A stretch of DNA of 32,954 bases from Cytophagaceae bacterium SCN 52-12 (GTDB lineage: Bacteria; Bacteroidota; Bacteroidia; Cytophagales; Spirosomataceae). A model generated the notes under the pieces. That model ran no database searches and had not been told where the DNA came from. It saw only the letters and a program-made list of their open reading frames with translations. The translations under genes were made by a program, and so were the position numbers. The stretch spans positions 1 to 32,954 of the forward strand of contig MEDT01000059.1 in the NCBI GenBank assembly GCA_001724175.1. The letters are read 5' to 3'. Shown here piece after piece: positions 1,057 to 23,200 of the stretch (positions within the stretch are counted from its first letter, which is position 1; every line of letters starts with the position of its first letter).

Positions 1057-2049
1057 CTAGCTTCCTGCTTTCTCCTCCAGCCGTCTTTTCACGATATCTT
1101 CCGGGTAGCGGAGCGCCAGCTGCCGAATTTCATAGCTGAACTTCGTAAACGTCTCCTCCCACATTTTCGCCTCTTCTTCGGTATACTCATAGAACCCGTT
1201 TGCATTGGAAACGCCGTTGCCGCCGGACTGTACGATGTCGTCGATAAGCTTCGGCACTTCCGTACCGTTATAAAGCGTCGGGAACAGGTCTTTCATGACG
1301 GTATGATAGGCTTTGACGCCTGTCAGGTCCATCCAGCGGAATACCCCGACAAAGGTCATAAAATACCCGGCATTGTTCCGGCATGACCTGTCCACATCCT
1401 CGATGGTGGCGTACCCGTTCTCGACCAGGTTGATCGCCTCGCGGTACATGGCATACATCAGCCGGTTGGTAATAAACCCGCGGATATCCTTCCTGACCAG
1501 GATCGGCTCCTTGCGCCATTTCAGGGCCAGCTTCTGCAGGTATTCCCCCTGGCCGACGTCGCTGTCGTCCCCGCATATGATTTCCAGAAAACGTGTAGTA
1601 TGCGCAGGTTCGGCCCAGTGCAGCCCCAGAAAGCGCTTCGGATGCCTGGTGTGCTTCTGCAGAACACTGATGGGTATGGCGGAGGTATTGCTGGTCAGCA
1701 GGGCATTTTCATCGATGACCTTCTCCACCTTTTCAAACACCGATTTCTTTACGTCGAGGTTCTCAATGGTACATTCCAGTACCAGTTTTGCATCCTTCAG
1801 CAGCCCGTAGTCTTCGGTAATGGTCAGGTTTTCCAGGATCTCCTCAGGACTCCGGCTGATCAGCCCGTTTGACAGGGATTTGTCGAGGTGCTCTCTTATC
1901 CGGCTGCCGGCCAGCTTCAGATCGTCGCTTACGGGCGCCACGGCTATGACCGGGTGGCCCGCTATGAGCAGACAGGTGGTGATGCTGCACCCCATTAAGC
2001 CGAGGCCCACCACACCCACCTGAATATCGCGTGTTTCCAGCTCCGCCAT
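1057..2049 (-). CDS. 3-hydroxyacyl-CoA dehydrogenase family NAD-dependent oxidoreductase
   Basis: This 330-residue cytoplasmic protein has no signal peptide. The N-terminal Rossmann domain has the dinucleotide motif GLGLMG at residues 15-20 and SNTS at 120-123. The catalytic His-Glu pair of the family is present as H144 and E156. The surrounding loop reads LHWAEP, where classical fatty-acid enzymes have HFFNP, so the substrate may be a hydroxy acid or sugar acid rather than acyl-CoA. The C-terminal helical domain starts near residue 188 (GFITNRLMYA). Its ATG at 2049-2047 overlaps the TGA of the upstream oxidoreductase by one base (TGATG), which implies translational coupling. It is the last gene of the catabolic block. 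Family assignment is firm; the substrate is not known. Confidence 0.85.
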   Translation of the reverse strand: MAELETRDIQVGVVGLGLMGCSITTCLLIAGHPVIAVAPVSDDLKLAGSRIREHLDKSLSNGLISRSPEEILENLTITEDYGLLKDAKLVLECTIENLDVKKSVFEKVEKVIDENALLTSNTSAIPISVLQKHTRHPKRFLGLHWAEPAHTTRFLEIICGDDSDVGQGEYLQKLALKWRKEPILVRKDIRGFITNRLMYAMYREAINLVENGYATIEDVDRSCRNNAGYFMTFVGVFRWMDLTGVKAYHTVMKDLFPTLYNGTEVPKLIDDIVQSGGNGVSNANGFYEYTEEEAKMWEETFTKFSYEIRQLALRYPEDIVKRRLEEKAGS

Positions 2050-3131
2050 CAGATCTTAACGACGTTACCGGTTTTAACAGATTCGTCGCAGGCAAAGGCG
2101 ATCTGCAGGCTGTTGACAGCGTCCTGTATATGATCTGTCAGGTCGATGTCCTCGCGGATAGCCTTAAGGAAATACCGTTGCTCCCTGTTGCAAAGCTCCT
2201 GGTGATCAGGCTCGTCCTGGAGGTTGATCCAGGTATCTTCTTTGGCAAAACGCTCATTTGCGTCGAGATCGGCATGGTGGATCAGCAGCGATTCTGTTTT
2301 GGTATGCGCTTCGATCGAATCCGATTTCCCGGTACCTCCCGCATCTTTGGCTACGATCGAAACGGATCCTTTAGGACCGAATACGTCCTTGACAAAGAAA
2401 GCGGTTTCGCTCACCATCGGTCCCCAGCCTGCCTCATACCAGCCTACCGATCCGTCTTCAAACCTGATCTGGAGCTGACCGTAGTTGTAGTTGTCTGCCG
2501 GTATATCGTCCGTAAGACGCGCCCCGATCGCATTCACCTGTACCGGCTTGCTGCGAACCATCTGGCACATCACATCTATGTAGTGTACGCCGCAGTCCAC
2601 GATAGGACTCAGGCTTTTCATCAGGTTGCGGTGCAGCGTCCACATCGCCGTATCGCTCTGCTGGTTGAGGTTCATCCTCATTACAAGCGGCTTGCCCAGC
2701 TTTTGGGCTTCCTCTATAAAGCGCTCCCACGACGGGTGATGGCGCAATATATAGCCAACTACAACCTTCTTGTTGAGCCTTTTGGCGGCAGCTGCCACGC
2801 GCGCGGCGGCCGCTACCGAATCTGCTATGGGTTTTTCCACAAAAACGTGGGCTCCGGCTTCCATTGCCTGTATAGCGTAGGCTTCATGAGTATCGGGATA
2901 GGTGGATATACAGACCGCGTCGGGCTTTGTCTCTTCCAGCGCCTGCGTAAAGTCGCTGTAGAGCGCATAGCCCCCGCCAAGCTTTTCATTCAGCGCTTCC
3001 TTGCTCTTTCCTTTTGAAACAATACCTACTATTTCAAAGCCATCTTCTGTGTGATACGCCATCGCATGGGAGCTTCCCATATTACCGGCTCCTACTACCA
3101 GCACTCTCAAAGGTTTAGTTGATTCTGACAT
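2049..3131 (-). CDS. Gfo/Idh/MocA family oxidoreductase
   Basis: This 360-residue protein has the family's two parts. The first is an N-terminal NAD(P)-binding fold with GAGNMG at residues 14-19 and the EKP motif at 99-101. The second is a C-terminal alpha/beta substrate domain with the catalytic D-C-G-V-H-x-x-D pattern at 178-185. Members oxidise or reduce sugars, inositols and sugar derivatives. There is no Sec or Tat leader, so it should work in the cytoplasm on imported material. It is coupled to the following dehydrogenase by a one-base overlap and lies 77 bases downstream of the DUF1080 gene. Such genes commonly accompany DUF1080 genes in sugar-oxidation loci, which supports a joint role, but the substrate is not readable. 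Confidence 0.9.
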   Translation of the reverse strand: MSESTKPLRVLVVGAGNMGSSHAMAYHTEDGFEIVGIVSKGKSKEALNEKLGGGYALYSDFTQALEETKPDAVCISTYPDTHEAYAIQAMEAGAHVFVEKPIADSVAAAARVAAAAKRLNKKVVVGYILRHHPSWERFIEEAQKLGKPLVMRMNLNQQSDTAMWTLHRNLMKSLSPIVDCGVHYIDVMCQMVRSKPVQVNAIGARLTDDIPADNYNYGQLQIRFEDGSVGWYEAGWGPMVSETAFFVKDVFGPKGSVSIVAKDAGGTGKSDSIEAHTKTESLLIHHADLDANERFAKEDTWINLQDEPDHQELCNREQRYFLKAIREDIDLTDHIQDAVNSLQIAFACDESVKTGNVVKI

Positions 3132-3208
3132 TTCTGAAATTGAATAGTTATTAAATTAAAATGACCCTCTGATAGATTATATCAACCCAAATTTGGCGAT
3201 AATTTTTC

Positions 3209-4000
3209 TCAAAGCGGAATCAATTCCACTTTTTTGACATACATTTCCGCCCCTTCCGACTGGATTTGTATCTTCCCCTTTGAGGGCCTGACATTTACGG
3301 CCTGGTTGACGAGCACGCCGTTCAGGTATAAATCGATGCTGTCGCCTTTTGCTATTACTTCCAGGCGGTTCCATTTTCCGACCGGCTTTTCCACATCCCT
3401 GCTTCCCCTGAAATTGACCACGTCTTTCCATTCCGGGTCGCGGTAAAGCCAGTTGATGCGCCCTTTGTTAATGGTAACAAGCTCCCCGCCAGGCTGGTAG
3501 ATATAGGAAGCGCCCTGCTTTTCAGGCGCCACGGGCGCCGAAAGAGAAAACTTATCGGTACCGTCCCCAACAACGAGGAAATCGCCGGAGCCGCCTTCAA
3601 TCAACTGGCATTCGATGGAATTGATCCACACGCCGCCATACCCGCCGTCCTTGCCCTGCGAATGGATCAGCACCCCGTTGTCGCGCGCGCGGTCTACCCG
3701 CGGCGCATATGTTTTTTCTCCCCATTTGAAATCTACGGTAAGCTTATAATTCTCATATTCTTCGTTGGTGGTAATACAGCCGTATTCCTCTCCCGTTATG
3801 AAAATCATCCCCTTGGAAACGGTAAATACTCCTTTAGGATCGCTGTTCTTACCGGTGGTTTTGAGGAAGGTGTACCATCCGTCGAGATTCTTCCCGTTAA
3901 AAAGGACTACTTTTTTCTTTTTCTGGGCCTGCACCTGGAAACAAGCCGTCAACAGCCATAAAAAGGCAAATATTGCGGTAAATAAATTTCTTCTTTTCAT
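3209..4000 (-). CDS. DUF1080 / 3-keto-disaccharide hydrolase family exported protein
   Basis: This 263-residue protein is essentially one lectin-like (concanavalin-type) beta-sandwich domain of the DUF1080 family. It opens with the hallmark LFNGKNLDGW at about residues 33-42. Further family features are DNGVLIHS, GGYGGVWINSIECQ and a closing segment with VGKWNRLEV and a lysine-linked C-terminal strand. The N-terminal signal sequence is ambiguous: LTAC at 17-20 would make a lipoprotein, while VQAQ at 23-26 would allow ordinary signal-peptidase cleavage. Characterised members of the family act on 3-keto-glycosides, which would fit the neighbouring Gfo/Idh/MocA enzyme. Substrate assignment is inference. 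Confidence 0.85.
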   Translation of the reverse strand: MKRRNLFTAIFAFLWLLTACFQVQAQKKKKVVLFNGKNLDGWYTFLKTTGKNSDPKGVFTVSKGMIFITGEEYGCITTNEEYENYKLTVDFKWGEKTYAPRVDRARDNGVLIHSQGKDGGYGGVWINSIECQLIEGGSGDFLVVGDGTDKFSLSAPVAPEKQGASYIYQPGGELVTINKGRINWLYRDPEWKDVVNFRGSRDVEKPVGKWNRLEVIAKGDSIDLYLNGVLVNQAVNVRPSKGKIQIQSEGAEMYVKKVELIPL

Positions 4001-4040
4001 TATTGTTGGGTTGAATTGAGAGTTGAAAATTGAAAGTTGT

Positions 4041-5468
4041 CTACGGCTGCTTTTTCAGATCGTTAAGCAGCGGGAACAGCGTCGCGGTGATCTTTTCAGA
4101 CGCCTGTACCTCGAGGTAGCTGGAGCGGGCCCGCCAAGTTTCATAACCTCCCCAGGAATGCTGTTTGGGCGTAGGCAGGTAACCGTTGTAGCCGTTTGCC
4201 AGGGAAATCGTAAAATTGGAAGCAAACGGGCTTTTCTCCTTTATTTCAAGTCCTATTTCTACAAATACTTCACAGGGGATGGCTGAAATGGCAAGATCGC
4301 CGATGCGGAATGCCTGGATGATGAGGGGCACCTTGTCGGGATATTTGTCGATCAGCACCGACTCCCTCGCATAAATGGCCTCCCTGTCTTTTAATACCTT
4401 ATCCTGGTGCTTCGACAGGATATCGCGGGCTCTCTGCAATTCGGCCGCTGTCGGCTTTCTTACACCGAGGGAGATCTCCTTCTGAGCGGAGGCGAGCGGT
4501 ACCCAGCCGACGAATTGCATGGCGCTCACCGCCTTGTATGCCTCGCCGGCTACCAGGTTGGCCACGCGCTGCATCTGTGCATAGGCGCCGTCGGGTTTCC
4601 AGCTGCCCGATTTCCAGTCGATGTTGTTGATATCGCCGCTTGTACCGTTGGACATGATGCCTACAAAAGGACGGTTCGGGTTGCCATGCCCTACCATCTC
4701 TTTCAGACGCCCCGCGAACATCCCGAAGTAATCCGCCGAAATTTCACCTCCGCCTGTACCGCCTACATAATGCAGCGAATAGTTGGCCAGCACCGCTATC
4801 GGTTCGCCTGTCCGCGCTTTCAGGGCGAGAACGCTTACTTCCGGATCCGTAGGTCCGGCAGGCTCTTTCAGGTCAGGGTTCTTGACGCCCGGGTTCATCC
4901 TTACTTTGTCTACGCCGCCAAACGGATTGGTCATCCCTTTTTCACTTTTCATAAACCAGCGGCGGTTATGTACCTGCGACGCCTCGTAACCCTTGCCCCA
5001 TCCTATTTCGGCAGGCACCAGGTTGTTGTTGGCCCTGATCAGCGCATCGGCGATCCTTTCCGAAAGAAAATCGAGGTAGGCAGGCGAAGGGTCGCTCTGG
5101 AAAACGCTGCATGCAGTTCCGGCGCTGTGCGTATGGGTTGCCGACATCATCATGTTTTCGACGGGAATACCCGTCAGTTCATGAGCCCGCTTCTTGGCTT
5201 TATCGAGCGTCTCTTTATATACCATACACAGATCGGACACGACGATGGCCAGCTTCGTCCTGCCGTCGTCCATCACGATGGCCCTGGCGTGCGTATCGTC
5301 GTGGATATGCTTTACCAGGCCATCCTGCATATTTCCGTTTATGCTATAGCCGATGGGCGGGGTGATCACGCTGACGGCTGCACCCGCCCTGAACACCTGC
5401 TCCTGGGCATGGCCCGCACCGCCTGCAAAAGCCAGGGCGAAGACAATACAGAGTTTATTTAATTTCAT
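4041..5468 (-). CDS. Neutral/alkaline ceramidase-fold secreted hydrolase (copy 1)
   Basis: The 475-residue protein starts with a Sec signal peptide (cleavage near AHAQ, residues 19-22). The rest matches the neutral ceramidase N-terminal domain. Predicted zinc ligands are present: THTHS at 111-115, the histidine of NYSLH at 233, a glutamate in IPCE at 400, and tyrosines in GYLPTP and GGYET (430 and 442). The loop that carries the serine nucleophile in Pseudomonas ceramidase (GDVSPN) reads GDINNI at 278-283, so the serine is absent. The C-terminal Ig-like domain of full-length ceramidases (over 600 residues) is also missing. It is most likely a zinc-dependent hydrolase of another amide or ester. 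It is the most diverged of the three tandem copies. Confidence 0.85.
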   Translation of the reverse strand: MKLNKLCIVFALAFAGGAGHAQEQVFRAGAAVSVITPPIGYSINGNMQDGLVKHIHDDTHARAIVMDDGRTKLAIVVSDLCMVYKETLDKAKKRAHELTGIPVENMMMSATHTHSAGTACSVFQSDPSPAYLDFLSERIADALIRANNNLVPAEIGWGKGYEASQVHNRRWFMKSEKGMTNPFGGVDKVRMNPGVKNPDLKEPAGPTDPEVSVLALKARTGEPIAVLANYSLHYVGGTGGGEISADYFGMFAGRLKEMVGHGNPNRPFVGIMSNGTSGDINNIDWKSGSWKPDGAYAQMQRVANLVAGEAYKAVSAMQFVGWVPLASAQKEISLGVRKPTAAELQRARDILSKHQDKVLKDREAIYARESVLIDKYPDKVPLIIQAFRIGDLAISAIPCEVFVEIGLEIKEKSPFASNFTISLANGYNGYLPTPKQHSWGGYETWRARSSYLEVQASEKITATLFPLLNDLKKQP

Positions 5469-5543
5469 CCGGGTATTAAGATTTGTTATCGAATAGTTGT
5501 AAAATAATATGAGGACCTCACCCCCGGGTCTCCTTTCCTCCCC

Positions 5544-7028
5544 TCACTTCTTAAGCGCCCTTAACTGCTCCAGCTGGCGCGCCACGATTTTGCGCGAAGC
5601 CTCCTTCTCTACCCTGTTGGTCCCCAGCCATGTCTCATAACCGCCCAGCTCATGCTGCTCAGGGGTAGGCAGGTAACCGTAGTTCCCGTTGGCAAGCTCA
5701 ATGGTGAAAGTCGATTTGAAAGGACTCTTCGCCTTAATTTCAAGGCCGGTTTCCGCAAACGTTTCGAAGGGGATCGCAGCGATGCCCAGGTCGCCTATGC
5801 GCAGGGTCTGCATGACGATATCGACATTTTCGGGCCATTTCTCCTGCATCTGGATAGCCCTTTTGGCATAGGTCGGCTCCAGGGGATGGTATTTTTTGAT
5901 GCCGTCCGGGTTGGCGACGACCTCTTTCGCCCTGGCCAGCATTTCGGGAGTCGGCTTTCTTACCTTCAGGTTGAGATTGCTGTAGGCAGCGCCCAGCCTC
6001 ACGTCAGTTTGGTAGGATATCCTGCTATAGTTATCGTATATCGCCTTTGCCACATCGCGGGCTACGATCTGCATTTTCTGGTAGCTCTGCATCCGGTCTG
6101 CCGGCCCTTTTACATTGATGTTGTTGACGTCTCCGGAAGTACCGTTAGACATGATAGCGACGAACGACGGCGCTTTATTGCCGGCATCCATCAACCTTGA
6201 AAACTGCTCTGCAAAAGCACCGAAATAATCGGAAGTGATATGATCGGCAGGAACACCTCCCACATAATGCAGGGAGTAATTGGCCAGCAGCGCGATAGGC
6301 CGCCCGTCGAGCGCCTGGACAGATACGAAATACACCTCGGGGTCGGTCTTCCCGGCCGGCTTCAGCAGGTTCGGATTCCCCACCCCGGGGTTCATTCTTG
6401 CCTTGTCCTGGCCGCCGAAAGGGTTGGGTACGTCGGTCCCGTCCTTCATCAGCCATCTCCTGTTGAAAACGTGCTGGGGGACATCTACAGAGCTCCACCC
6501 TATTTTAGCCGGCTCCTTCTGGTAGATAGCCCGCCTGACGCCGTCGGCGATCCGCCTGGCGACAAAGGTCTGGTATTCGTCCAGCCCTTTGTCGTAGTTG
6601 TAGTTCATACGCTCGTCCCCCACGCTGCTCGCGCTCACGCTCGAGTGGGTATGGGTAGCGGCCATCAGCACATTTTCGGCTTTCATGCCCGTTTTTTCCC
6701 CGATGAGCTTCCTGGCATAGTCGAACACTTCCCGGTTGATAGACAGGTTGTCGACGATCACGATCGCTATCTGCTCCTGCCCATCATCCAGTACCAGGCA
6801 TTTGGCATATAATTCATCGTGGATGTACTTGGCCTCGGGAGGAATGCCGAAATTCCCGACTATTCCTCCTCCCAGAAAAGGAGTGATATTACTGAGCGCC
6901 GCGCCTGCCTGAAGCACGGGGGTCGCGGGCTGCGCCGGCAAGCTACCGGCAAACAGGCAGAGTACCGCCAATAACAGCCCCGAAGCACGATTGCTGCAAA
7001 ATTTGAATTTAAGGTAAATGGTTTTCAT
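5544..7028 (-). CDS. Neutral/alkaline ceramidase-fold secreted hydrolase (copy 2)
   Basis: This 494-residue protein has a long N-terminal leader ending near PAQP (31-34), then a ceramidase-type domain. Metal-site motifs are intact: THTHS at 125-129, NYSLH with H254, and a C-terminal IPFE...GYLPTPEQHELGGYET segment. The nucleophile loop reads GDVNNI at 299-304, with asparagine in place of the ceramidase serine. By eye it is closely similar to copy 3, sharing long identical stretches such as DGRPIALLANYSLHYVGG, so the two look like a fairly recent tandem duplication. Intergenic spacing is 36 bases upstream and 75 downstream, consistent with one operon. The substrate is unknown and an actual ceramidase activity is doubtful. 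Confidence 0.87.
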   Translation of the reverse strand: MKTIYLKFKFCSNRASGLLLAVLCLFAGSLPAQPATPVLQAGAALSNITPFLGGGIVGNFGIPPEAKYIHDELYAKCLVLDDGQEQIAIVIVDNLSINREVFDYARKLIGEKTGMKAENVLMAATHTHSSVSASSVGDERMNYNYDKGLDEYQTFVARRIADGVRRAIYQKEPAKIGWSSVDVPQHVFNRRWLMKDGTDVPNPFGGQDKARMNPGVGNPNLLKPAGKTDPEVYFVSVQALDGRPIALLANYSLHYVGGVPADHITSDYFGAFAEQFSRLMDAGNKAPSFVAIMSNGTSGDVNNINVKGPADRMQSYQKMQIVARDVAKAIYDNYSRISYQTDVRLGAAYSNLNLKVRKPTPEMLARAKEVVANPDGIKKYHPLEPTYAKRAIQMQEKWPENVDIVMQTLRIGDLGIAAIPFETFAETGLEIKAKSPFKSTFTIELANGNYGYLPTPEQHELGGYETWLGTNRVEKEASRKIVARQLEQLRALKK

Positions 7029-7064
7029 TGGACTAGTATAAAAATTAAAAAAACATCTATCCTC

Positions 7065-8546
7065 TCACTTAAATGCCTTCAACTGTTCCAACAGCCTGTC
7101 GGTGATCTTACGGGATCCCATTTTTTCCACATAATTGGTCCCAAGCCAGGTTTCGTACCCGCCCAGCTCATGATGTTCGGGAGTAGGCAGATAGCCGTAC
7201 CATCCGTTGGCCAGTGAAATTGTGAACGTAGACTTAAAAGGACTTTTTTCCTTGATCTCAAGACCTGTTTCCGCAAAGGTTTCAAATGGAATGGAAGCAA
7301 TGGCCAGGTCATCAATTTTCAAGGCAAGCATGACAGCCTTTACCTTTTCCGGCCATCGCTCCTGCACCCGGATCAAACGCTGGGCATAAAAAGGTTCCAG
7401 GGGGTGATACAATTTAATTTTATCCGGGTTTGCCAGTACTTCCCGGGCGCGTGCGAGCATTGCGGGAGTAGGTTTCCGGACTTCCAGGTCCAGTTCCGAA
7501 AAAGAAGCCCCCAGCGCTACGCTGGTCCTGTACTGAATCCGGGAATACTGCTTAAAGATCTTATCAGCTACATCCTTCGCAACAAGCTGCATTTTTTGGT
7601 AAGCGCCCATTTTTTCCGCCGGCCCCCTGAAATTGATATTATTGACATTTCCTGAAGTACCGTTAGACATCATCGCCACGAATCCGGGCGCTGCTTTATC
7701 GCCGCCCACCAGTTTCTTGAAGTAATCGCCAAATACACCGAAATAGTCGGATGAAACATGGTCGCCCGGAACGCCGCCCACATAGTGCAGGCTATAATTC
7801 GCCAACAACGCAATCGGGCGCCCATCGAGCGCCTGGACTGATACGAAAAACACTTCAGGATCGGTGGGACCGGCCGGTTTGTCAAGCGCAGGATTCGCCA
7901 CACCCGGGTTCATTCTTACCTTGTCCTGGACACCGAAAGGGTTGGTCATATCCGTACCCGGTTTCATAAACCAGCGTCGGTTAAACACGTGTTCCGGGGC
8001 GTTTACCGAGCCCCACCCTATCTGGGCGGGTTCCCGGCTATAATATGCCCGCTGCACGCCATCCGCAATCCGGCGCGCTACAAACTGCTGGTACTCATCC
8101 AGTTGTTTGCCATAGCTAAAATCTCCGGTTTGCTCTCCGGTCTTGATAGCGCTGACACTGGAATGCGTATGAGTGGCCGCCATCAGCACATTTTCTTTTT
8201 TTATTCCCGTGCTTTTCTGAATGATCTCCCGCGCCTCATCGTACACCTCGCGCGGTATCAGGCAATTATCGGCAATTACTATCGCAATCTGTTCAGAACC
8301 ATTGTCCAAAACCAGGCTTTTGGCATACAATTCGTCATGAATATATTTGGCAACCGGCGATCCGAAGCCTCCGATCAGCACATTATCCAGGAACGGCGTA
8401 ATATTGCTCATCGAAGCGCCCGCGCGCAGCGGCCCCGGCTTATGCTGAGCGGACAAGACCAGCGGGGAAACGCCTAGAATGATTGCCAGCATAGCAGCTG
8501 TGCGCCTACCGGCAGAGCGGATACGCGTTAAGGATGGGGTTTTCAT
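7065..8546 (-). CDS. Neutral/alkaline ceramidase-fold secreted hydrolase (copy 3)
   Basis: This 493-residue protein has an N-terminal signal sequence (cleavage near LSAQ, residues 31-34) and the same single-domain layout as copy 2. THTHS (125-129), H254 of NYSLH and the C-terminal glutamate and tyrosine motifs of the zinc site are kept. The loop at 299-304 reads GNVNNI. Here even the aspartate of the family GDxxxN motif is replaced, besides the missing serine. It may therefore have a different substrate from copy 2 or be catalytically impaired. It starts 27 bases after the stop of the propeller-cytochrome gene and is the first of the three tandem genes to be transcribed. Confidence 0.87.
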   Translation of the reverse strand: MKTPSLTRIRSAGRRTAAMLAIILGVSPLVLSAQHKPGPLRAGASMSNITPFLDNVLIGGFGSPVAKYIHDELYAKSLVLDNGSEQIAIVIADNCLIPREVYDEAREIIQKSTGIKKENVLMAATHTHSSVSAIKTGEQTGDFSYGKQLDEYQQFVARRIADGVQRAYYSREPAQIGWGSVNAPEHVFNRRWFMKPGTDMTNPFGVQDKVRMNPGVANPALDKPAGPTDPEVFFVSVQALDGRPIALLANYSLHYVGGVPGDHVSSDYFGVFGDYFKKLVGGDKAAPGFVAMMSNGTSGNVNNINFRGPAEKMGAYQKMQLVAKDVADKIFKQYSRIQYRTSVALGASFSELDLEVRKPTPAMLARAREVLANPDKIKLYHPLEPFYAQRLIRVQERWPEKVKAVMLALKIDDLAIASIPFETFAETGLEIKEKSPFKSTFTISLANGWYGYLPTPEHHELGGYETWLGTNYVEKMGSRKITDRLLEQLKAFK

Positions 8547-8573
8547 GTGGTTTAGGTTTAGAGTTCCTGCTGC

Positions 8574-11534: not shown

Positions 11535-11873
11535 TGTAGCTGCCTGTAAATACCAGGCTTTTCAACTTTTAAATAATGTGTTTACAACCGGCCCTGAATT
11601 TTTGCAGGAATGTCGGGACAGCCGGGATTAAGAATTCCGCACCGAAAACTTCACTTGAAATTTTCTATCATAAATGCGAATAATCGTAGTGGTTCGGTAA
11701 AAGGTTATACTGAGAGTAATGCATTTTAAGGGAAAGGATTGATTATCGGGATAATATATGGGATCCATTCTAATAAAATCAACAAACCGGCTTTTTTGAT
11801 AAGTAAAGAATTTCAGCTGCAACACGCGTTGTTGACGGCAGCGTTCTTTTTACGTTATGTTTCGTCGAAAACA
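11535..11873. other. 339-base intergenic region without a supported gene
   Basis: This AT-rich gap separates the sulfatase from the propeller-cytochrome gene and is the longest gap inside the catabolic block. A minus-strand frame of 65 codons lies at 11628-11825, but its composition is basic and low-complexity and it matches nothing I recognise. I found no match to the TAnnTTTG promoter element on the minus strand and no strong terminator hairpin. A promoter for the downstream half of the block could lie here, but I cannot point to it. Confidence 0.6.
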
Positions 11874-13364: not shown

Positions 13365-13378
13365 ACAAAGTCGTCAGC

Positions 13379-14968: not shown

Positions 14969-15086
14969 TTGCCAACTGTTAAAGATTAAATGGTTTAGTA
15001 CTTTTTTTCGATCATTTATTTAAAAACGATTAACTATATAATGAAAAACGTAACCGGCGCCCTACATACTCACCGCTACTTTTAAA

Positions 15087-15126
15087 ATAAACCTATCTCC
15101 TTCGTTCTGAAGGAGAATAGGTTTAT
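15087..15126 (-). terminator. 17-bp stem-loop between SusD1 and the enzyme genes
   Basis: The arms 15087-15103 and 15109-15126 pair over 17 bp with a single bulged base around a 5-base loop. On the minus strand the stem is followed by tattttaaaag, a short and imperfect U-rich tail. It sits 30 bases after the SusD1 stop and 118 bases before the next start. It fits a partial terminator or 3'-end-stabilising hairpin that would set the transporter genes at higher expression than the enzymes downstream. Confidence 0.7.
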
Positions 15127-15156
15127 CGACCATCTACCAACTATCAACAAAAAAGA

Positions 15157-16785
15157 TCACCATCCCGGGTTTTGAGTCAGCTGCGGATTGAGCGTAATCT
15201 CCTGCAAAGGAATAGGATTGAGATAAAGCTTATCGTCCCATTTCCTGGCCGTATAGCCCGGGTACAGGACCCTGTTGGCGCCCGTTGCCGGGTCTACCGC
15301 CCCCTGGATCGTTTTTGGATTCTCAAGTACCTTGCCGGCTTTCCACCGTACCAAATCATCCCAGCGGTTGCCCTCAGCGCAGATCTCCAGGCGGCGTTCC
15401 CTCCTGATCTCGTTCAGAAGCGGCGATATCGCCATACCCCAGTCCGGCCAGTTCGGATCTGTAAACCCTACCGTCGTCTTCAGGTGCGGCATGCCTACCC
15501 TGTCGCGCAGTTGGTTTACCGTTTTATCCAGCACTTCCTGTGTACATTCGTTGAGCTCGGCTTTTACTTCGGCGTAGGAAACCAGGACTTTACCGTACCT
15601 GTAGACGAAGTCGTCGGTGGTCGAAGTGCTGGGAAGCCTGTCTCGTTCATAAGGGCTGTACCCCTTGATGATGTAGTAGCTCGTAGGACAGTAATTATTC
15701 TGGAACTCCGGCATGGTTTTGTAGTTGGTCGTCCCGTCGTCGAAAATACGGTAGGGGCGCTTCTCCTGGTAGATAGACTGCTCCATGCGGGGATCCCTGT
15801 TCACAAATTCGTCCGCAAATTTCTTATCCCCTTTATAGAGCGGGCTGATCGCAATCGGGAGGCCGTCGGTACACAAATAAGATTCGACAAAGTCCTTGCT
15901 GTAGCCGGTATACGGCTCGCCGAGCTGGCGCACATTGTTGTGCATACGCTTGTCGGTGATGTAGCGCTGTACAAAAATCCCTTCCGGGTTTCCTTTCAGC
16001 TCATACTGCACAAAAAGGTCGAAATAGTCTTTATCGGGCTTGCCGGTGGACCATACCGCAAAGCGGCCCGAGCTGATGATCGACTCATAGGCGGCAGCGG
16101 CTTTTTTGAGCAGCTCCTCGTGCCCGCCGCCCACGTTGTGGTACTTCCTGAATGTCCCCTCGTACAAGGCTATGTCTCCTTTCAGGTTAAGCGCGGCAAA
16201 TTTGGTAAGACGATCTTCAGCCGAGGTTTCGGGTAAATTTTCTATCGCAAAATCGAGGTCCGCCAGCATGTTGTTCACCACGGTCTCACGCGGGTCGCGG
16301 GGAGCGTTGAGCTCTTCCGACTCCGTATCCAGGCTCCTGGACAGCCAGGGGACTTCTCCGAACTTCTTCAGCTTATCGAAGTAATAGAAAGCCCGGAAAA
16401 ACCTCAGCTCTCCGTGGGCGAGCTTCAGCGTCGCGTCTTCGGGTACGCCTGCAATTCTCTCAAGCGCATAATTGACCCTCCTGATCTGCAGCCAGTCGGC
16501 CTTGCCCCAGCTGCCGCCGGAAGAAGGGACCGGGGTTTCGTTCCAGGTATAGGTATTCCGGCTGCTGGGCACCTGGTTGTCGCTGAAATTGTCCAGCGAG
16601 TACCACGCCAGGCGGGCATCAAACAACGTAGGATAAAACTGGCTGGCGTACATTTTAAAATCCGCCCCGGTCTTCCAGAAATTGGTATCGCTTATTTTGT
16701 CTTCCGGGAATTTCTCCAGGAAATCGTCATTACATGCCGTAAGCGAAAAGATGGATACTATCCCTGCCAAAAAGTATTTTTTCAT
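15157..16785 (-). CDS. SusD-family (RagB/SusD) surface lipoprotein, pair 1
   Basis: This 542-residue lipoprotein has a short signal peptide with lipobox LTAC (Cys18). Asn-Asp-Asp follows the cysteine, the type of acidic export signal that sends Bacteroidota lipoproteins to the cell surface. The N-terminal region (DFLEKFPEDKISDTNFW) and the helical TPR-like body with ALNLKGDIALY are typical of SusD. The C-terminus contains the conserved IRRERRLEICAEGNRWDDLVRW segment, recognisable at about residues 455-476. It binds substrate over the SusC1 pore, and its gene begins 21 bases after the SusC1 stop. The ligand cannot be predicted from sequence. Confidence 0.93.
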   Translation of the reverse strand: MKKYFLAGIVSIFSLTACNDDFLEKFPEDKISDTNFWKTGADFKMYASQFYPTLFDARLAWYSLDNFSDNQVPSSRNTYTWNETPVPSSGGSWGKADWLQIRRVNYALERIAGVPEDATLKLAHGELRFFRAFYYFDKLKKFGEVPWLSRSLDTESEELNAPRDPRETVVNNMLADLDFAIENLPETSAEDRLTKFAALNLKGDIALYEGTFRKYHNVGGGHEELLKKAAAAYESIISSGRFAVWSTGKPDKDYFDLFVQYELKGNPEGIFVQRYITDKRMHNNVRQLGEPYTGYSKDFVESYLCTDGLPIAISPLYKGDKKFADEFVNRDPRMEQSIYQEKRPYRIFDDGTTNYKTMPEFQNNYCPTSYYIIKGYSPYERDRLPSTSTTDDFVYRYGKVLVSYAEVKAELNECTQEVLDKTVNQLRDRVGMPHLKTTVGFTDPNWPDWGMAISPLLNEIRRERRLEICAEGNRWDDLVRWKAGKVLENPKTIQGAVDPATGANRVLYPGYTARKWDDKLYLNPIPLQEITLNPQLTQNPGW

Positions 16786-16806
16786 TTTCTTACTGTTTAA
16801 ATAGGG

Positions 16807-19800
16807 TTAGAAATTGATATTGGCGCCCAGGGAAAGCGACTTATACAGCGGGTAGGAGCTCGGCCCCGGCAGCTCCGGATCCGAGATCTTGATCATCTTG
16901 GTGGCGGTCCACAGGTTTGCCCCCGTGAAAAATACCTTGATGCGGTCCATCCCTATTTTCCGGCTGACATCTGCCGGAATGGTATATCCGAACGTCAGCT
17001 GCTTTAATCTCAGGTAGGCTGCGTTCTGCAAAAAGCGGCTCTGAACGGCCGTGATATCGCCGGCGCCGGAAATAATCGGCCTCGGGAAAAATGCATCCGG
17101 GTTTTCCGGCGACCAGTAGTCCATCGCCGCTTTCGAAATCCCGACCCATTCGTTGGAGTACTGCGTAAGGTAGTAAAGCGTCGACATGTTAAGGTCGCGC
17201 TTCGCCACGCCCTGGAAGAACAGGTCCAGGTCGAAACCCTTCCATTTCCAGTTGGTGCGGAAACCATAGCTGTATCTCGGTGTGTTGTTGCCGATAACGC
17301 TCATGTCTCCGGGATTGCTGAGCGTTTGCGCGCCGCGGGTTATTTTCCCGTCGCCGTCCAGGTCTACCATCCACAGGTCGCCGGCCTGGCGTTTCCTCCC
17401 GTTGATATTCGACTGGTCGAGCGCGAGGGCCTCTTCGTCGGTCTGGAACAGCCCGCCGGTGGTCAGCCCCCATATGCTTCCCAGGTTTTGTCCTACATAG
17501 TAGTCGGTAATCAGCCCTGAAGGGTTACTGAATTTGGTGATTTTAGCCGAATAGTCCGAAAGGATAACCGTCGCTTCGTAGCGTACCTCCCCGATCTTGT
17601 CGCGCCATTCGATATTGAGGTCGAAACCCGACGTTCTCATATCCGCCGCATTGGCCCGCGGCTCGGTAACAGCCAGGACTGCCGGAAGGGTCTGCGACTT
17701 TGTAAGCATGTCGCGGGTATCCCTGCGGTACACGTCGAAGGAAGCGGTCAGCTTGTTCGTAAAAAGCGACAGGTCAACACCGAAGTTCATCTGGGAAACC
17801 GTCTCCCATGTCAGCGTCGGGCTTACCAGCTCGGGTGAGTAAACCGACATCGGGCGCTCTCCGTTGACCAGGTAAGGAACCTCCTGCGCGCTCAGCGTCG
17901 CGATGTACGGGTAGAAGATCGGGTTGCCTGCGGCATCTACCAGAAGTTGGTTGCCCAGTGTTCCGTACGATGCCCTGAACTTTAAATCGCTCAGCCAGCT
18001 GCTCGTCGAAGACATAAAACCCTCTTTGGATACCCGCCATCCCAATGAAACGGAGGGGAAGAAGCCAAAGCGGCTCTTTTTCGGGAAACGGGATGTACCG
18101 TCATACCGGCCGTTAAACTCGAGCAGGTACTTGTCGTCGTAGCTGTAATTGAAACGGGTAAATGCACCCCTGATCGCAAACTCGTTCAGCCCGTCGGATG
18201 CGAACCTTTCGCCGGATGCCAGGCTCATGTAAGGGATATCGTTGATGATCAGGTTGCGGCGCTCTGCCTTGGTCCATGCATAGGATGCATTTTCCTGGTT
18301 AAAGCCCACCATCAGCTTTACATAATTCTTTCCGAACGTATTGCTGTAGTCCCCGTAAGCATTGAAAACGTAATAGTTATCGTCATAGTTAGTCCTGATC
18401 ACCCTGTTCGGATTAGATCCTCCGTAGTACCCCGACACATCGCCGTTCACGTTATAGAAGGGAATAAGCGCCAGGTAAGACATTTCGGCCGTAGACTTTG
18501 TATTGAACGAATAATCGACATTGAACGTGGTATTGCGGATGGGGGTCAGCGTGGCACTTCCCGTCAGCCATACGTCATTGACTTTCCGCGTACGTTCTCC
18601 CCCGTCTTTGATGAACTGGGCGGGATTGCCGATCGATCCCTCGTGCGTCCATTTCCCGTTGGGATCATACAGCGGCTGGGTGGAATAAACGTTGGTCTGG
18701 TAGATCGTCCCGGTTTCAGGGTATGAATTACGGAACTGATCGTCGTTGGGCGGATACCGCTTGTTGCTGTTATTGACCGATATCTTGGTCCCTACCTTCA
18801 GCCAGCTCAGCACTTCGTAGTTGAGATTGGTCATCAGGTTGTAGCGGTTGAATTTCTCCTTGAACAAGTCCCTGTTGGTGAGACCGCCCTGGTAGATGTA
18901 CGACAGCGAGCTGTAATAGTCAAATTTGCCCGACCCGCCCGAAACGCTGGCCGTATGCTGCTGCATGGGATACCGCTTGTTCATCAGGATATCCTCCCAG
19001 TTGGTGTTGGCCACCCCTGTCCACTCGTTGAGGTTAGAAGGGTGAATGATGGCCGACGGCTGGCTCGGATCGTTGTAATGGGCCATCATGGCATTCACCA
19101 TGATGTCGTCATAATACGGCCGGCCGTTTATCCGCATGTAAGCCTCGTTCATATAGCCGATCCGGTCTCTGGTATCGATAAACTCGATCCGGCTCGTCGG
19201 CTCATTGGAAGTAAGGATAGAGGAGACCGATACGCTGGGCCTGTCCTTTTTCTTACCACTTTTGGTAGTAACCAGGATCACCCCATAGGCAGCCCGGGCT
19301 CCGTAAATTGCCGCAGAGGCAGCATCTTTCAGTACCGTTACGCTCTCTATATCATTGGGACTGAGCAGGTTGATATCCATCGGGATCCCGTTTACCAGGA
19401 TCAGCGGCGAGCCGCCGTTTATGGAAGTATTCCCGCGGATATTGAAGGTAGCCCCCTGCCCGGGAGAGCCTGTGCCCGGAGAAATGTTAAGGTTGGATAC
19501 AGTTCCCTGCAATCCCTGTCCCAGGTTAGTGATCGGCCTGCTTTCCAGCACCTCCGAGCCTATCGTCGATACTGCGCCGGTGAGGTTGACCTTTTTCTGG
19601 GCGCCGTAACCTACCACGACCAGCTCTTCCAGCGATTTGTTGTCTACCTGCATGCTGATTTCCAGCGACGTCTGGGAGCCTACCGTTTTTTCCTGCGTAA
19701 AATATCCCACGAAAGAAAACACGAGCACCGCGCTGCCGTCGTCGACGGTAAGCTCAAAATTCCCGTTTTCATTGGTGGTCGTCCCTTTCTGGGAACCTTT

Positions 19801-20307
19801 CACCAGGATGCTCACGCCGGGAAGCCCCTGCCCGTTTTCATCCCGGACGATACCGCGGACTACCTGGTCGGCGGGGGGCGGCGTCACCTCGAAAGAAGAC
19901 TGCGGGATAGCTCCCTCCTCCTGCGCGCGGTTGATTAACGGTACAGGTATACGACTGACGATAATATGCTTGTCCGATACTTCATAAGAAAGGTGCAGCG
20001 GCATCAGCAGCCTGTTCAGGGCGACGGACAGGGGCTCCTTCTGCGCTTTAAACGTCACCTTCTGGGAAGGATTGACCAGGTTGGAACTGTATAGAAAATT
20101 GATGCCGGTCTGCTTCTCGAGTCTGGTAAAAACGGTTCTTATCTCTTCCTGCTTCACCGATATGGTCACCCGGCGATCAAGAAGATCCTGTGTTCTGGCT
20201 TCATGCGCCTGTACTGCACCCAGAAGAACAAAGGATAGGAACGATTGTAAAACAGTGATGCGCATAATTTTAACAGCTAGCCGGTAGCCACAAGATGGTT
20301 TTTCCAT
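16807..20307 (-). CDS. SusC-family TonB-dependent outer-membrane transporter with STN domain, pair 1
   Basis: This 1166-residue transporter has, in order: a signal sequence within residues 1-35; an STN signalling domain (about 65-117); a carboxypeptidase-regulatory-like beta domain (about 148-222) with GLPGVSILVKG; the SusC plug signature ELVVVGYGAQKKVNLTGAVS (228-247); and a long beta-barrel ending in phenylalanine. The STN domain implies that ligand binding is reported to a FecR anti-sigma factor, encoded just upstream. The annotated start is preferred over M15 because the paralogue SusC2 has the same extension (MxKPxxGYRLAV). It forms a TonB-driven pore capped by SusD1. Confidence 0.95.
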   Translation of the reverse strand: MEKPSCGYRLAVKIMRITVLQSFLSFVLLGAVQAHEARTQDLLDRRVTISVKQEEIRTVFTRLEKQTGINFLYSSNLVNPSQKVTFKAQKEPLSVALNRLLMPLHLSYEVSDKHIIVSRIPVPLINRAQEEGAIPQSSFEVTPPPADQVVRGIVRDENGQGLPGVSILVKGSQKGTTTNENGNFELTVDDGSAVLVFSFVGYFTQEKTVGSQTSLEISMQVDNKSLEELVVVGYGAQKKVNLTGAVSTIGSEVLESRPITNLGQGLQGTVSNLNISPGTGSPGQGATFNIRGNTSINGGSPLILVNGIPMDINLLSPNDIESVTVLKDAASAAIYGARAAYGVILVTTKSGKKKDRPSVSVSSILTSNEPTSRIEFIDTRDRIGYMNEAYMRINGRPYYDDIMVNAMMAHYNDPSQPSAIIHPSNLNEWTGVANTNWEDILMNKRYPMQQHTASVSGGSGKFDYYSSLSYIYQGGLTNRDLFKEKFNRYNLMTNLNYEVLSWLKVGTKISVNNSNKRYPPNDDQFRNSYPETGTIYQTNVYSTQPLYDPNGKWTHEGSIGNPAQFIKDGGERTRKVNDVWLTGSATLTPIRNTTFNVDYSFNTKSTAEMSYLALIPFYNVNGDVSGYYGGSNPNRVIRTNYDDNYYVFNAYGDYSNTFGKNYVKLMVGFNQENASYAWTKAERRNLIINDIPYMSLASGERFASDGLNEFAIRGAFTRFNYSYDDKYLLEFNGRYDGTSRFPKKSRFGFFPSVSLGWRVSKEGFMSSTSSWLSDLKFRASYGTLGNQLLVDAAGNPIFYPYIATLSAQEVPYLVNGERPMSVYSPELVSPTLTWETVSQMNFGVDLSLFTNKLTASFDVYRRDTRDMLTKSQTLPAVLAVTEPRANAADMRTSGFDLNIEWRDKIGEVRYEATVILSDYSAKITKFSNPSGLITDYYVGQNLGSIWGLTTGGLFQTDEEALALDQSNINGRKRQAGDLWMVDLDGDGKITRGAQTLSNPGDMSVIGNNTPRYSYGFRTNWKWKGFDLDLFFQGVAKRDLNMSTLYYLTQYSNEWVGISKAAMDYWSPENPDAFFPRPIISGAGDITAVQSRFLQNAAYLRLKQLTFGYTIPADVSRKIGMDRIKVFFTGANLWTATKMIKISDPELPGPSSYPLYKSLSLGANINF

Positions 20308-20350
20308 AAATTTAAATGGTTTGTTGGGTCCACAAAATTTGACAAACGAT

Positions 20351-20413
20351 CTCCGGCCCAGTGCCAGTGAGCCCGGAGAACTTTCAGATGCCGGCCGGGA
20401 AACCGGCCGGCAT
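20351..20413 (-). promoter_or_regulatory. Two adjacent hairpins between FecR and SusC1
   Basis: One hairpin has a perfect 11-bp stem (20388-20398 paired with 20403-20413) closed by a four-base loop. A second, weaker one pairs ctccgg at 20351-20356 with ccggag at 20373-20378. Both lie in the 189-base gap between the FecR stop and the SusC1 start. No U-run follows on the minus strand, so a simple intrinsic terminator is unlikely. RNA processing, attenuation or protection of the abundant SusC mRNA 5' end are possible roles. Confidence 0.6.
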
Positions 20414-20496
20414 TCTTAGAAAAGGAAGTTATTTTGATATCATAGTGTCAGGTTTTAGGTTCAGGAATAGATTTATTTCATATAGGAATAGCCGAT

Positions 20497-21573
20497 CTAA
20501 GTACAACCTTCTGAATCTATCACGATCTCGCCATCGACCACTTTATAGGTCGCTCCCAGGCCCTTACATATCAGTCTTATTTTCTCATACAGTGTTTCAT
20601 TGACGAAAGAAGCGGTGATCCTGCAGTCAGACAGCAGGTTATCGGGATAGCGGATCCTGATATCGTAAGCTTTTTCCAGCATATCGAAAATATCCGATAC
20701 GGGCTTATCGTCGAAGAAGTGCAAAAGCTGCTCATCCGGTATTTCCGGCTTTTCCAGCTTTTCGAGCGACAGCTGCATCTTATTCCGGTCCAGCACTATC
20801 CTTTCATCAGGATTGACAATCTCTCCTCCCTGTTCCGTTCCTTTCAGGCCGCTTATACCCGGCGCAAAAACGGTCACCCTTCCCGTCCTGACCACTACCT
20901 CGGCCTGCTCATCGTCGGGAAAGGCCCTGACGTTAAAGCTGGTGCCGAGGACCTTCGTGGTGAACCCGCTGGTATAAATATAGAACGGGGATTCCCGGTT
21001 GGGAACTACTTCGAAAAAAGCCTCCCCCGAAAGGTGTATCTCCCGTTTCCCGTTCGTCCCGAAATCGTGCAGGTCATAGCTGACCCGGCTGGCAGACGCC
21101 AGCAGCACGGTGCTCCCGTCGGGAAGGTCAACAGGAAACACGCTCTTCCTGTCGTTTACGATTTCTTCGAAACGCGATTTCTGAGCGACCTCCACGCCGG
21201 CCCCGGCGTCGCCTTCTGCGGCAGTATCCCGGTACATCCGCAATACGCTTCCCGCTATGAGAACCAATGTAGCCGCTACCCACCAATACCTCGAAACAAA
21301 CACCCGCCATGAGCGCAGCTGTCCTTCCTCCCTGCCTTCTATGTTTTCCTCTATCCTGTTCCACAACACCTGTTTCCTTTCATCTTCCAGCGTCTGCCCG
21401 GGAAACCGCTCTGATGCCAGCAGGATCAGCCTGGCTGCCGCCATGGCTTCCCGCCGCTCCCAGTTGGCCTGCTCATATTCTTTCCACTGTCTGTCTTCTC
21501 CACCCGTTTTCACCAGCCGGACAAAAACCGGATCGGATAAGAATTTTGCTATGTCGGGGTCCTGAAATTCCAT
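20497..21573 (-). CDS. FecR-family anti-sigma factor
   Basis: This 358-residue protein has a cytoplasmic sigma-binding N-terminal region rich in W, E and R, one transmembrane helix at about 96-112 and a periplasmic FecR domain. The FecR domain (about 142-240) has the typical LPDGSTVLL, GEAFFEV and VLGTSFNVRA motifs. A C-terminal domain (about 275-358) resembles the small STN-like module usual in Bacteroidota FecR proteins. It relays the state of an STN-containing SusC to the ECF sigma factor. It lies between the two SusCD pairs rather than next to the sigma gene, which is unusual. A decayed copy of its first codons is present near 26594-26634. Confidence 0.93.
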   Translation of the reverse strand: MEFQDPDIAKFLSDPVFVRLVKTGGEDRQWKEYEQANWERREAMAAARLILLASERFPGQTLEDERKQVLWNRIEENIEGREEGQLRSWRVFVSRYWWVAATLVLIAGSVLRMYRDTAAEGDAGAGVEVAQKSRFEEIVNDRKSVFPVDLPDGSTVLLASASRVSYDLHDFGTNGKREIHLSGEAFFEVVPNRESPFYIYTSGFTTKVLGTSFNVRAFPDDEQAEVVVRTGRVTVFAPGISGLKGTEQGGEIVNPDERIVLDRNKMQLSLEKLEKPEIPDEQLLHFFDDKPVSDIFDMLEKAYDIRIRYPDNLLSDCRITASFVNETLYEKIRLICKGLGATYKVVDGEIVIDSEGCT

Positions 21574-21665
21574 TTAAAATCAAAAAGTATGTTGTGGGCC
21601 TTCTTTGAAAGTACCAAAGAGGCTGCTGCCGGATTTAACTCATCATCTTTTATTTTTTTTTATAG
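21574..21665 (-). promoter_or_regulatory. FecR leader with conserved inverted repeat
   Basis: The leader of the FecR gene contains cttctttg (21600-21607), a 7-base spacer aaagtac and caaagagg (21615-21622), an inverted repeat with one mismatch. It is followed by the block ggatttaactca (21631-21642) and a T-rich tract. All of these elements recur in the same order and spacing at 26635-26719. Conservation over a duplicated and otherwise decayed segment suggests either a functional control site or simply shared descent. It begins right after the SusD2 gene. Confidence 0.55.
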
Positions 21666-21680
21666 AGATCAGGTTTCGTT

Positions 21681-23159
21681 CTAATATCCGTTATTCTGCT
21701 TCAGCCTGCCCTGGCTGTCATCGATTTCAGTTTGCGGTATCGGCAAAACCTCGTTGATCCCCTCCTTGAAATTCGCGCCTTTAACCGTATTGTACTTCCG
21801 GGCATAGGCTCTCAGCACCTCTCCTGCCCTCCCCTGCCTGACAAGGTCGAAGAAGCGATGATTTTCCATGCTGTACTCCACACGCTGCTCGTGGTAGATC
21901 GCCTGTCTTAATTCTTCTTTGCTACCGGCTGCGATATCGGGCAAAACCTGCTGGTTTCCCTGCCTTGCCCTGCGCCTCACCTCGTTGACGCTATTGACGG
22001 CCGCCGGGCCGTTACCGTTTTCATTGGCCGCTTCGGCATACCACAAAAGCAGCATTCCGTATCTCAGCTTTATTTCATTCCTGCCGGAATGGATCGGGTC
22101 GCCGGTCGGAGGAAAATCGGAAGCGACCAGATACGCTTTTTTGCTCATATAGCCCGTCTCGCTGTTCCCGATGTCCGCGATCTTTCCGTCAGGCATCAGG
22201 TCTCCCTGCTTATAGACGGTTTGCCATAACCGGGGATCGCCTTCTTCAAACTCATCTACCAGGTCCTGCGAAGGGTTGGCAAACCCGTATCCATACATCC
22301 CGGCGCTTCCCTGCCTGATGGAGGCCAGGTTCCTGGCAGTCAGGAACTGGGCGCTGTACAGATGATTTATTTCAAAAATATTCTCATCGCCGAATTCCCC
22401 CCCGATGGTAAAAAGGGATGCATAGTCACTGACGAGCCGGTACTCATTGGAATCGATCACCTTTTTGAACCAAATCTCGGCATTGGCGAAGTCCCCCATA
22501 TAAAGAAACACCTTCCCCAGGTAAGCCTGCGCAGCGCCTTTCGTGATGCGGCCGTTTTCTGCCGCGGGCATTGCGCTTTTCGCCGGCAGGACATCGGCTG
22601 CGGCGGACAGATCTTCCCGGATAAACTGGTAGACATCGGCCTTCGGATCCCGGGCTACCGTTTTTACATCTACCTGGGAGGTCTTGATAAGCGGCACGTC
22701 CCCGAAAAGAGTGACCAGGATGAAATAGTAATAAGCCCTTAAAAACCTGGCCTCGGCCAGTATCCTGCTTTTCTTTGATTCGTCCATTTCGATACCGGGT
22801 ACGTTTTCCAGCACGAGATGCGAACGGAACACGCCGAGGTAGCTGTTCCTCCAGACCTGCAGCGCAACGGTATTGGTCGACGCTATGGTAAAGTTTGCTA
22901 TGTCGTTGAAGTAGCTGCCGTCGCTCGGTCCTTCACCGCCCTTTAACGCATTGTCGGTAACGATATCGTATATAGAATAGCCGTCGTAGCCGGGATAATT
23001 ATACAGAGGGTTATAGGCGGCGGCGAGCGCCTTCATGGCGTCGGCTTCGGTCCTGTAGCCCGATGCCACCGAAAGAGTCGCCAGCGGATCTTTATTTAGA
23101 AGGTCGTCACACCCCAGCAGGAAAAAACCCGCAACCAGTAGTATGAAATGCTTTTTCAT
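21681..23159 (-). CDS. SusD-family (RagB/SusD) surface lipoprotein, pair 2
   Basis: This 492-residue lipoprotein has lipobox LLGC (Cys17), directly followed by two aspartates as expected for surface export. The N-terminal DLLNKDPLATLS, the TPR-like segment GAAQAYLGKVFLYMGDFANA and the C-terminal EQRVEYSMENHRFFDLVRQG followed by LPIPQTEID are typical of SusD proteins. It should cap the SusC2 pore and bind the incoming ligand. It starts 41 bases after the SusC2 stop. By eye it is only distantly similar to SusD1, so the two pairs may bind different ligands or different parts of one. Confidence 0.93.
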   Translation of the reverse strand: MKKHFILLVAGFFLLGCDDLLNKDPLATLSVASGYRTEADAMKALAAAYNPLYNYPGYDGYSIYDIVTDNALKGGEGPSDGSYFNDIANFTIASTNTVALQVWRNSYLGVFRSHLVLENVPGIEMDESKKSRILAEARFLRAYYYFILVTLFGDVPLIKTSQVDVKTVARDPKADVYQFIREDLSAAADVLPAKSAMPAAENGRITKGAAQAYLGKVFLYMGDFANAEIWFKKVIDSNEYRLVSDYASLFTIGGEFGDENIFEINHLYSAQFLTARNLASIRQGSAGMYGYGFANPSQDLVDEFEEGDPRLWQTVYKQGDLMPDGKIADIGNSETGYMSKKAYLVASDFPPTGDPIHSGRNEIKLRYGMLLLWYAEAANENGNGPAAVNSVNEVRRRARQGNQQVLPDIAAGSKEELRQAIYHEQRVEYSMENHRFFDLVRQGRAGEVLRAYARKYNTVKGANFKEGINEVLPIPQTEIDDSQGRLKQNNGY

Positions 23160-23200
23160 CCGAATTGAGTTTGTGGTTTGAACATCTTACCCGCCTGGTA

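Follow-up and report, generated by a model that had tools for sequence, protein, structure and literature searches.

A SusCD locus of Cytophagaceae bacterium SCN 52-12 that may dismantle an amide-containing sugar compound by oxidation

What does a SusCD nutrient locus degrade, and by which chemistry, when ceramidase-fold and redox enzymes stand where classical glycoside hydrolases (GHs) are usually encoded? This question is raised by contig MEDT01000059.1 (C59) of the draft genome of Cytophagaceae bacterium SCN 52-12 (5.1 Mb, 79% complete), whose 32,954 nucleotides constitute the window analysed here. All genes of the locus lie on the minus strand, in one run, and include two SusC/SusD pairs. 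As an earlier note on this DNA had described, four ceramidase-fold proteins (cerA to cerD), a sulfatase, a propeller-type protein with HEAT and cytochrome c domains (PVCcytc), a DUF1080 protein, a Gfo/Idh/MocA dehydrogenase (Gfo) and a 3HCDH-family dehydrogenase (3HCDH) were all found in their places. Our tentative reading, to which we give somewhat less than even weight, is that this locus uses oxidation to dismantle a sugar compound that contains an amide and is sometimes sulfated.

Under this reading, a nutrient locus controlled by a sigma/anti-sigma pair would import an amide-bearing glycoconjugate via its two TonB-dependent transporters, and the exported ceramidase-fold proteins, as zinc amidases, would take off N-acyl groups or comparable amides or esters. 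Sulfate, where present, would be removed by the sulfatase, and an ester perhaps by an enzyme resembling carbohydrate esterase family 15 (CE15). In the periplasm, PVCcytc would oxidise the sugar, presumably at the 3 position, with electrons passing to cytochrome c; the exported DUF1080 protein would then cleave the oxidised (3-keto) glycoside, and the products would enter the cell, where Gfo and 3HCDH may reduce or further oxidise them towards central metabolism. Leader sequences, read by eye, were found on SusD1, SusD2, cerA to cerD, PVCcytc, DUF1080 (with a lipobox-like LTAC), the sulfatase and the CE15-like protein, placing these outside the cytoplasm, and were absent from Gfo and 3HCDH, placing both in the cytosol. 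This split fits a succession of import, deacylation and desulfation, cytochrome-linked oxidation, DUF1080 cleavage and cytosolic redox steps.

Recurrence of the locus and of the DUF1080-PVCcytc pair

Whole-genome searches covered Bacteroidota, through the window's own family (Spirosomataceae), order, class and phylum, and a scan of genome contigs with PVCcytc returned only Dyadobacter sp. CY323. Of the named organisms found, this relative from a genus of soil bacteria (Spirosomataceae, Cytophagales) is the closest. First, the core of the locus, sigma-FecR-SusC1-SusD1-cerA-PVCcytc-cerC, has its whole order intact in CY323 (L028), with protein identities to the window of 77-82%, except for sigma (70%) and for FecR (48%), which lies there between sigma and SusC1. 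Second, in the family genome G042 the same core adjoins a SusC-SusD-PVCcytc2-DUF1080-Gfo-3HCDH-cerD run. Identities in CY323 and G042 are 78% in both for SusC1, 82-84% for SusD1, 75-78% for cerA, 77% and 75% for PVCcytc, and 77% and 74% for cerC. Third, G595, a genome from another family of the same class, holds in a single run SusC-SusD-cer-cer-sulfatase-NCS1 permease-PVCcytc-cerD-DUF1080-3HCDH (sulfatase 66-67%, 3HCDH 74-81%, DUF1080 60%, cerD 61% and PVCcytc 51-52% identical), and cerD relatives of 61-62% identity adjoin or lie near DUF1080 in G042, G595 and G142. Because the gaps from SusC1 through 3HCDH are short (-1 to 339 bp), the core order returns in CY323 and G042, and a near-whole set is present in G595, the gene run is more than chance. 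The search for the same set in other Bacteroidota, proposed in the earlier note, thus found conserved gene order, and the data support a coherent, recurring catabolic locus.

The core is nonetheless rare: cerA is present in three of 222 family genomes (G000, G042, G171); among the 395 genomes searched at the level of the phylum, 3 have the close PVCcytc, and among the 150 from the family of G595, 4 do, with the own genome and distant matches counted. This distribution looks like patchy inheritance or transfer. In CY323, SusC2 (62%) and SusD2 (71%) have relatives at L121, on a contig separate from that of the core, and relatives of PVCcytc (55%) and DUF1080 (61%) come next there, so the window seems to combine modules that are apart in CY323. 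The SusC2-SusD2 pair (21681-26557) splits sigma from FecR, which are adjacent in CY323, and looks inserted between them.

DUF1080 and PVCcytc also keep company beyond this core. Of the 222 family genomes, 22 have close DUF1080 relatives. Neighbouring genes were read at 19 of these loci, and at 15 of them PVCcytc is encoded on the same strand no more than three genes away. The 15 show several gene arrangements, and their PVCcytc proteins fall into two divergent subfamilies. Nine of these 15 loci represent one module, SusC-SusD-PVCcytc2-DUF1080-Gfo-3HCDH, and are not independent; other arrangements are seen at L061, L119, L120, L121, L122 and L124. From a maximum of about 36 loose PVCcytc candidates per genome, we roughly estimate that chance would place one nearby at about 0.5 of the 19 loci. 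Among more distant DUF1080 copies of the own genome, two have PVCcytc two to three genes off and three lack it. All three cerA genomes are among the 22 with close DUF1080 relatives (hypergeometric P ~9e-4, relatedness ignored). Such proximity is to be expected if a cytochrome-linked oxidase feeds a 3-keto-glycoside route. PVCcytc itself exceeds the curated cut-offs of TIGR02604 (270.9 bits against 122.2) and TIGR02603 (109.5 against 68.15), and carries a CxxCH cytochrome c motif.

The features of the locus are included in Table 1. Adjacent SusC and SusD genes, the mark of a SusCD-type polysaccharide utilization locus, occur twice, as recognised by TonB_dep_Rec/Plug/STN and SusD_RagB domains; both pairs of the earlier note exist, but its range, ending at 23159, takes in SusD2 and excludes SusC2. 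The CE15-like/alpha-beta hydrolase, absent from that note, is probably an upstream member of the locus, and its 62% relative in G1021 adjoins a SusCD pair some 15 kb from a 49-51% PVCcytc relative. Between sigma and SusC2, a gap of 40% GC holds on the plus strand (26862-27376) a gene of 77 amino acids and a ParE-family toxin (PF05016, 36.7 bits), which together make up an inserted type II toxin-antitoxin module; a PADLOC scan returned nothing further.

Table 1. Features of the SusCD locus in order of transcription, with their positions in the window.
Feature	Position	Strand	Basis
Two-domain alpha/beta hydrolase, CE15-like (glucuronyl esterase) plus DLH-like domain	28327..30684	-	GCE_fung 129.5 bits, DLH/AXE1 weaker; GHSRNGK motif
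Extracytoplasmic function (ECF) sigma factor	27452..28048	-	Sigma70_r2/r4_2
SusC2, TonB-dependent transporter	23201..26557	-	Plug, STN, beta-barrel
SusD2, surface lipoprotein	21681..23159	-	SusD_RagB, SusD-like_3
FecR anti-sigma factor	20497..21573	-	FecR, FecR_C
SusC1, TonB-dependent transporter (core)	16807..20307	-	TonB_dep_Rec/Plug/STN-type Pfam domains
SusD1 (core)	15157..16785	-	SusD_RagB
cerA, ceramidase-fold, twin-arginine (Tat)-type leader (core)	13379..14968	-	Ceramidase_alk 29.1 bits
Sulfatase, formylglycine type (accessory)	11874..13364	-	Sulfatase PF00884 176 bits
PVCcytc, DUF7133/TIGR02604 propeller-type domain, HEAT and cytochrome c (core)	8574..11534	-	DUF7133 401 bits
cerB, ceramidase-fold	7065..8546	-	Ceramidase_alk
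cerC, ceramidase-fold (core)	5544..7028	-	Ceramidase_alk
cerD, ceramidase-fold, partner of DUF1080/3HCDH module	4041..5468	-	Ceramidase_alk
DUF1080, candidate 3-keto-glycoside hydrolase	3209..4000	-	3keto-disac_hyd PF06439 106 bits
Gfo/Idh/MocA NAD(P) dehydrogenase, without leader	2049..3131	-	Pfam family
3HCDH-family dehydrogenase, without leader	1057..2049	-	3HCDH family; 1 bp overlap with Gfo

Oxidation weighed against hydrolysis

The oxidative route through 3-keto sugars suggested in the earlier note is made plausible by the DUF1080-PVCcytc pairing, but it is unproven, and several observations weigh against it. The propeller of PVCcytc is modelled by AlphaFold with a predicted local distance difference test (pLDDT) of only about 25, and a sequence search of solved structures with this protein matched no propeller. 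We know of no PVCcytc-type enzyme demonstrated to be a 3-dehydrogenase; the window has no LacABC genes, and PVCcytc is its candidate glycoside 3-dehydrogenase by adjacency only. The DUF1080 copies of CY323 lie on contigs other than that of the core (C8), with two DUF1080-PVCcytc loci on C13 and C46; beside the core no DUF1080, sulfatase or GH is found, unrelated convergent genes coming next. Moreover, Gfo relatives at E<=1e-100 are present in 205 of the 222 family genomes, mostly at 74-82% identity, and this near-universality makes Gfo weak evidence of a special route, and rules it out as a pathway-specific marker. In the contexts read, these family-wide Gfo genes have no constant neighbours. 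As 3HCDH relatives at E<=1e-50 are likewise found in 111 of the 222 genomes, both dehydrogenases belong to the general gene stock of the family, from which the module recruited them.

Activities reported for related proteins point in the same direction. Lac161_ORF7, a TIGR02604-HEAT-cytochrome c protein, hydrolysed lactose with a Km of 1.8 mM (PMC5342196), and the DUF1080 protein THTE_1561 has been described as an endo-xanthanase/lichenase (PMC9007349), so DUF1080 proteins need not act on 3-keto sugars. Thus, PVCcytc and/or DUF1080 could be unconventional GHs in a hydrolytic locus devoid of 3-keto chemistry, its set completed by a GH20/GH67-like protein from another part of the genome. We consider this alternative unlikely, although it survives best among those weighed here. 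It does not account for the NAD dehydrogenases beside DUF1080 or for the conservation of a CxxCH cytochrome domain, and its GH20/GH67-like protein is found neither in the window nor around the CY323 core.

The evidence for such a protein is the following. A protein of 773-774 amino acids with a Tat leader is encoded directly behind cerD in G042 and G142; its profile weakly matches GH20 lacto-N-biosidases (E 1e-3), a paralogue touches GH67N, and a 59% homologue lies on contig C50 of the own genome. In addition, the G042 locus has two GH106 genes next to it. The earlier note had found no classical GH or polysaccharide lyase. For the window this stands, as a Pfam scan of its 19 main open reading frames detected neither, and the linked GH or lyase of a polysaccharide utilization locus is therefore missing from it, with a CE15-like esterase upstream; but the GH20/67-like and GH106 genes beside relatives' copies, the own 59% copy and the lactose hydrolysis by a PVCcytc-type protein weaken any argument built on this absence. 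GHs neighbouring the locus in relatives, which the earlier note had named as a refutation of its proposal, are in part what the G042 and G142 copies show. A Pfam-silent family of 770-970 amino acids with weak GH20/GH67 resemblance recurs beside ceramidase-fold clusters (L120:14377-16701, L030:7422-9743, L133:9486-14263), and is possibly an undescribed GH family. At other sites in G595, GH115 and GH88 genes neighbour those for ceramidase-fold proteins.

Ceramidase-fold proteins, sulfatase and substrate

The four ceramidase-fold proteins, out of about 15 in the own genome, are 475-529 amino acids long and score 44.6, 49.3, 49.0 and 29.1 bits with Ceramidase_alk, the last, cerA, just below the Pfam cut-off of 32.1. 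cerB and cerC, 68% identical, are a recent duplicate. Searched against solved structures, a profile of 17 family members matched neutral ceramidases and nothing else (2zws, 2.1e-32; 4wgk, 7.7e-28), as did the fold of an AlphaFold model of cerB (mean pLDDT 71; E 6e-21). The zinc ligands of the neutral ceramidase PaCD (H97, H204, E411 and Y448) align with residues kept in cerA to cerD, and His196, Arg257, Tyr579 and Tyr591 of human ASAH2 correspond to invariant H128, R190, Y452 and Y464 of the alignment. However, the serine of the GDVSPN motif (Ser354 in human, Ser274 in PaCD) is replaced by Asn in cerB, cerC and cerD and by Thr in cerA. This replacement, together with scores far under the cut-off of 1200 bits of the NCBIfam neutral ceramidase equivalog (27.9 for cerD, none for the other three), led us not to class them as true ceramidases. 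We also considered and dropped the idea that serine loss means inactivity: in human ASAH2, where His196, Arg257, Tyr579 and Tyr591 are critical, Ser354 positions Arg257 (reviewed in PMC6952831), and activity is expected because cerA to cerD retain the zinc, His, Arg and Tyr positions. Judging from these residues, cerA to cerD are probably active zinc amidases or esterases with a substrate other than that of ceramidase. Searches of the open-access literature turned up nothing on ceramidase-fold proteins from loci of this kind.

The single S1-type sulfatase of the window has a CTPSR fitting the C-x-P-S-R motif (SGVCTPSRASLMTG), and its nearest solved structures are steryl-sulfatase, arylsulfatase A (ARSA) and GALNS. 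Since the cores of CY323 and G042 lack a sulfatase, sulfation of the substrate, which the earlier note had proposed, is no property of the core. Sphingolipids, iridoids, flavonoids or algal compounds are guesses at the substrate class, and so are sulfated lipochitooligosaccharides, plant glycosylinositol-phosphoceramides or a sulfoquinovose-type catabolism.

A lipid-directed locus, in which true sphingolipids or N-acyl lipids (e.g. plant glycosylinositol-phosphoceramides or sulfated glycosphingolipids) are the substrates of the cer proteins while the other genes act on the sugar or inositol head group, would agree with neutral ceramidases as the sole fold matches and with the structures nearest to the sulfatase, steryl-sulfatase and ARSA. 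It would also agree with related cer clusters resembling inositol-type catabolism: at L033 (contig C250 of the own genome) and L120 (G142), genes for a PfkB kinase, a LacD-type aldolase and Gfo adjoin PVCcytc and ceramidase-fold genes. We nevertheless regard it as improbable, as cerA to cerD align to the catalytic part of ceramidase only and have lost its conserved serine, and the likeness of the sulfatase to ARSA is family-wide. Moreover, the fold is not tied to lipids, because another large group of its members is encoded alongside a class III aminotransferase, an M19 dipeptidase and 3HCDH. This cluster, 3HCDH-class III aminotransferase-3HCDH-M19 dipeptidase-ceramidase-fold, occurs at L036, L064, L065, L068, L069, L074 and L075 in several genera, with one or two members missing in some, and suggests that the ceramidase fold acts on amino compounds too.

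Just as improbable is an amino-compound or aldonate route, in which PVCcytc would oxidise C1 or another position of the sugar, a ceramidase-fold protein would open the lactone or amide, and 3HCDH would oxidise the hydroxyacid like its L-gulonate/carnitine dehydrogenase relatives: 3HCDH does keep the His/Glu/Asn positions, its nearest solved relative is a non-CoA enzyme (FHMPC 5-dehydrogenase), and PVCcytc directly adjoins 3HCDH, with no DUF1080 beside it, in the small-genome relatives L055, L056 and L104, but the frequent DUF1080-PVCcytc pairing is left unexplained and a lactonase-type activity is not known for the ceramidase fold here.

Implications and comparison with known systems

PVC-type cytochrome proteins and ceramidase-fold proteins are both abundant in these genomes. 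The compact core of CY323, with one SusCD pair, two ceramidase-fold proteins and one PVCcytc in a named strain, ties them to a single uptake system and makes both functions genetically tractable, and the DUF1080-PVCcytc pairing amounts to a concrete biochemical prediction. It is tempting to speculate further, if with considerable doubt, that propeller-cytochrome c proteins of the PVC type act as respiratory glycoside 3-dehydrogenases feeding DUF1080 3-keto-glycoside hydrolases, and so provide the 3-keto route with a second electron-transport entry, unrelated to LacABC. The serine-less ceramidase-fold proteins would then be zinc amidases of a new class, by which glycoconjugates are deacylated either ahead of this oxidation or following it.

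With classical polysaccharide utilization loci, the locus has in common SusC/SusD pairs, ECF sigma/anti-sigma control, a sulfatase and an esterase, but ceramidase-fold and redox enzymes replace the GHs or lyases recognised by Pfam. With neutral ceramidases (PaCD, 2zws; human ASAH2, 4wgk), cerA to cerD share the fold, the zinc ligands and the catalytic His, Arg and Tyr positions, whereas they are shorter, have Asn or Thr for the serine, and come as four copies within a sugar-type locus.

Three systems are closer to the proposed chemistry. First, BT2157-BT2160 is a 3-keto-glycoside pathway of Bacteroides with DUF1080 plus a Gfo/Idh/MocA protein, a combination that the window repeats in Bacteroidota. 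However, the Gfo of the window, besides being near-universal, reaches only 36-42 bits against the BT_2158/BT_2159 models (cut-offs 650-750), and a cytochrome-linked protein is present instead; BT2157 is a 3-ketotrehalose hydrolase (PMC9007349). Second, PVCcytc resembles Lac161_ORF7 in architecture, with the same TIGR02604, HEAT and CxxCH cytochrome parts; Lac161_ORF7, which has beta-galactosidase activity, comes from a Verrucomicrobia metagenome and, as far as reported, from outside any SusCD locus (PMC5342196). Third, in Caulobacter, DUF1080 and the electron-transfer dehydrogenase LacABC support the use of 3'-ketolactose; this route, also found in Pedobacter, has periplasmic, electron-transfer-linked sugar oxidation and an exported DUF1080 in common with the steps proposed here, and its reductases and epimerases likewise act later (PMC9007349). 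In the window, by contrast, the role of oxidase would fall to PVCcytc, with its propeller-type, HEAT and cytochrome c domains, and the locus further encodes SusCD import, a sulfatase and enzymes of the ceramidase fold.

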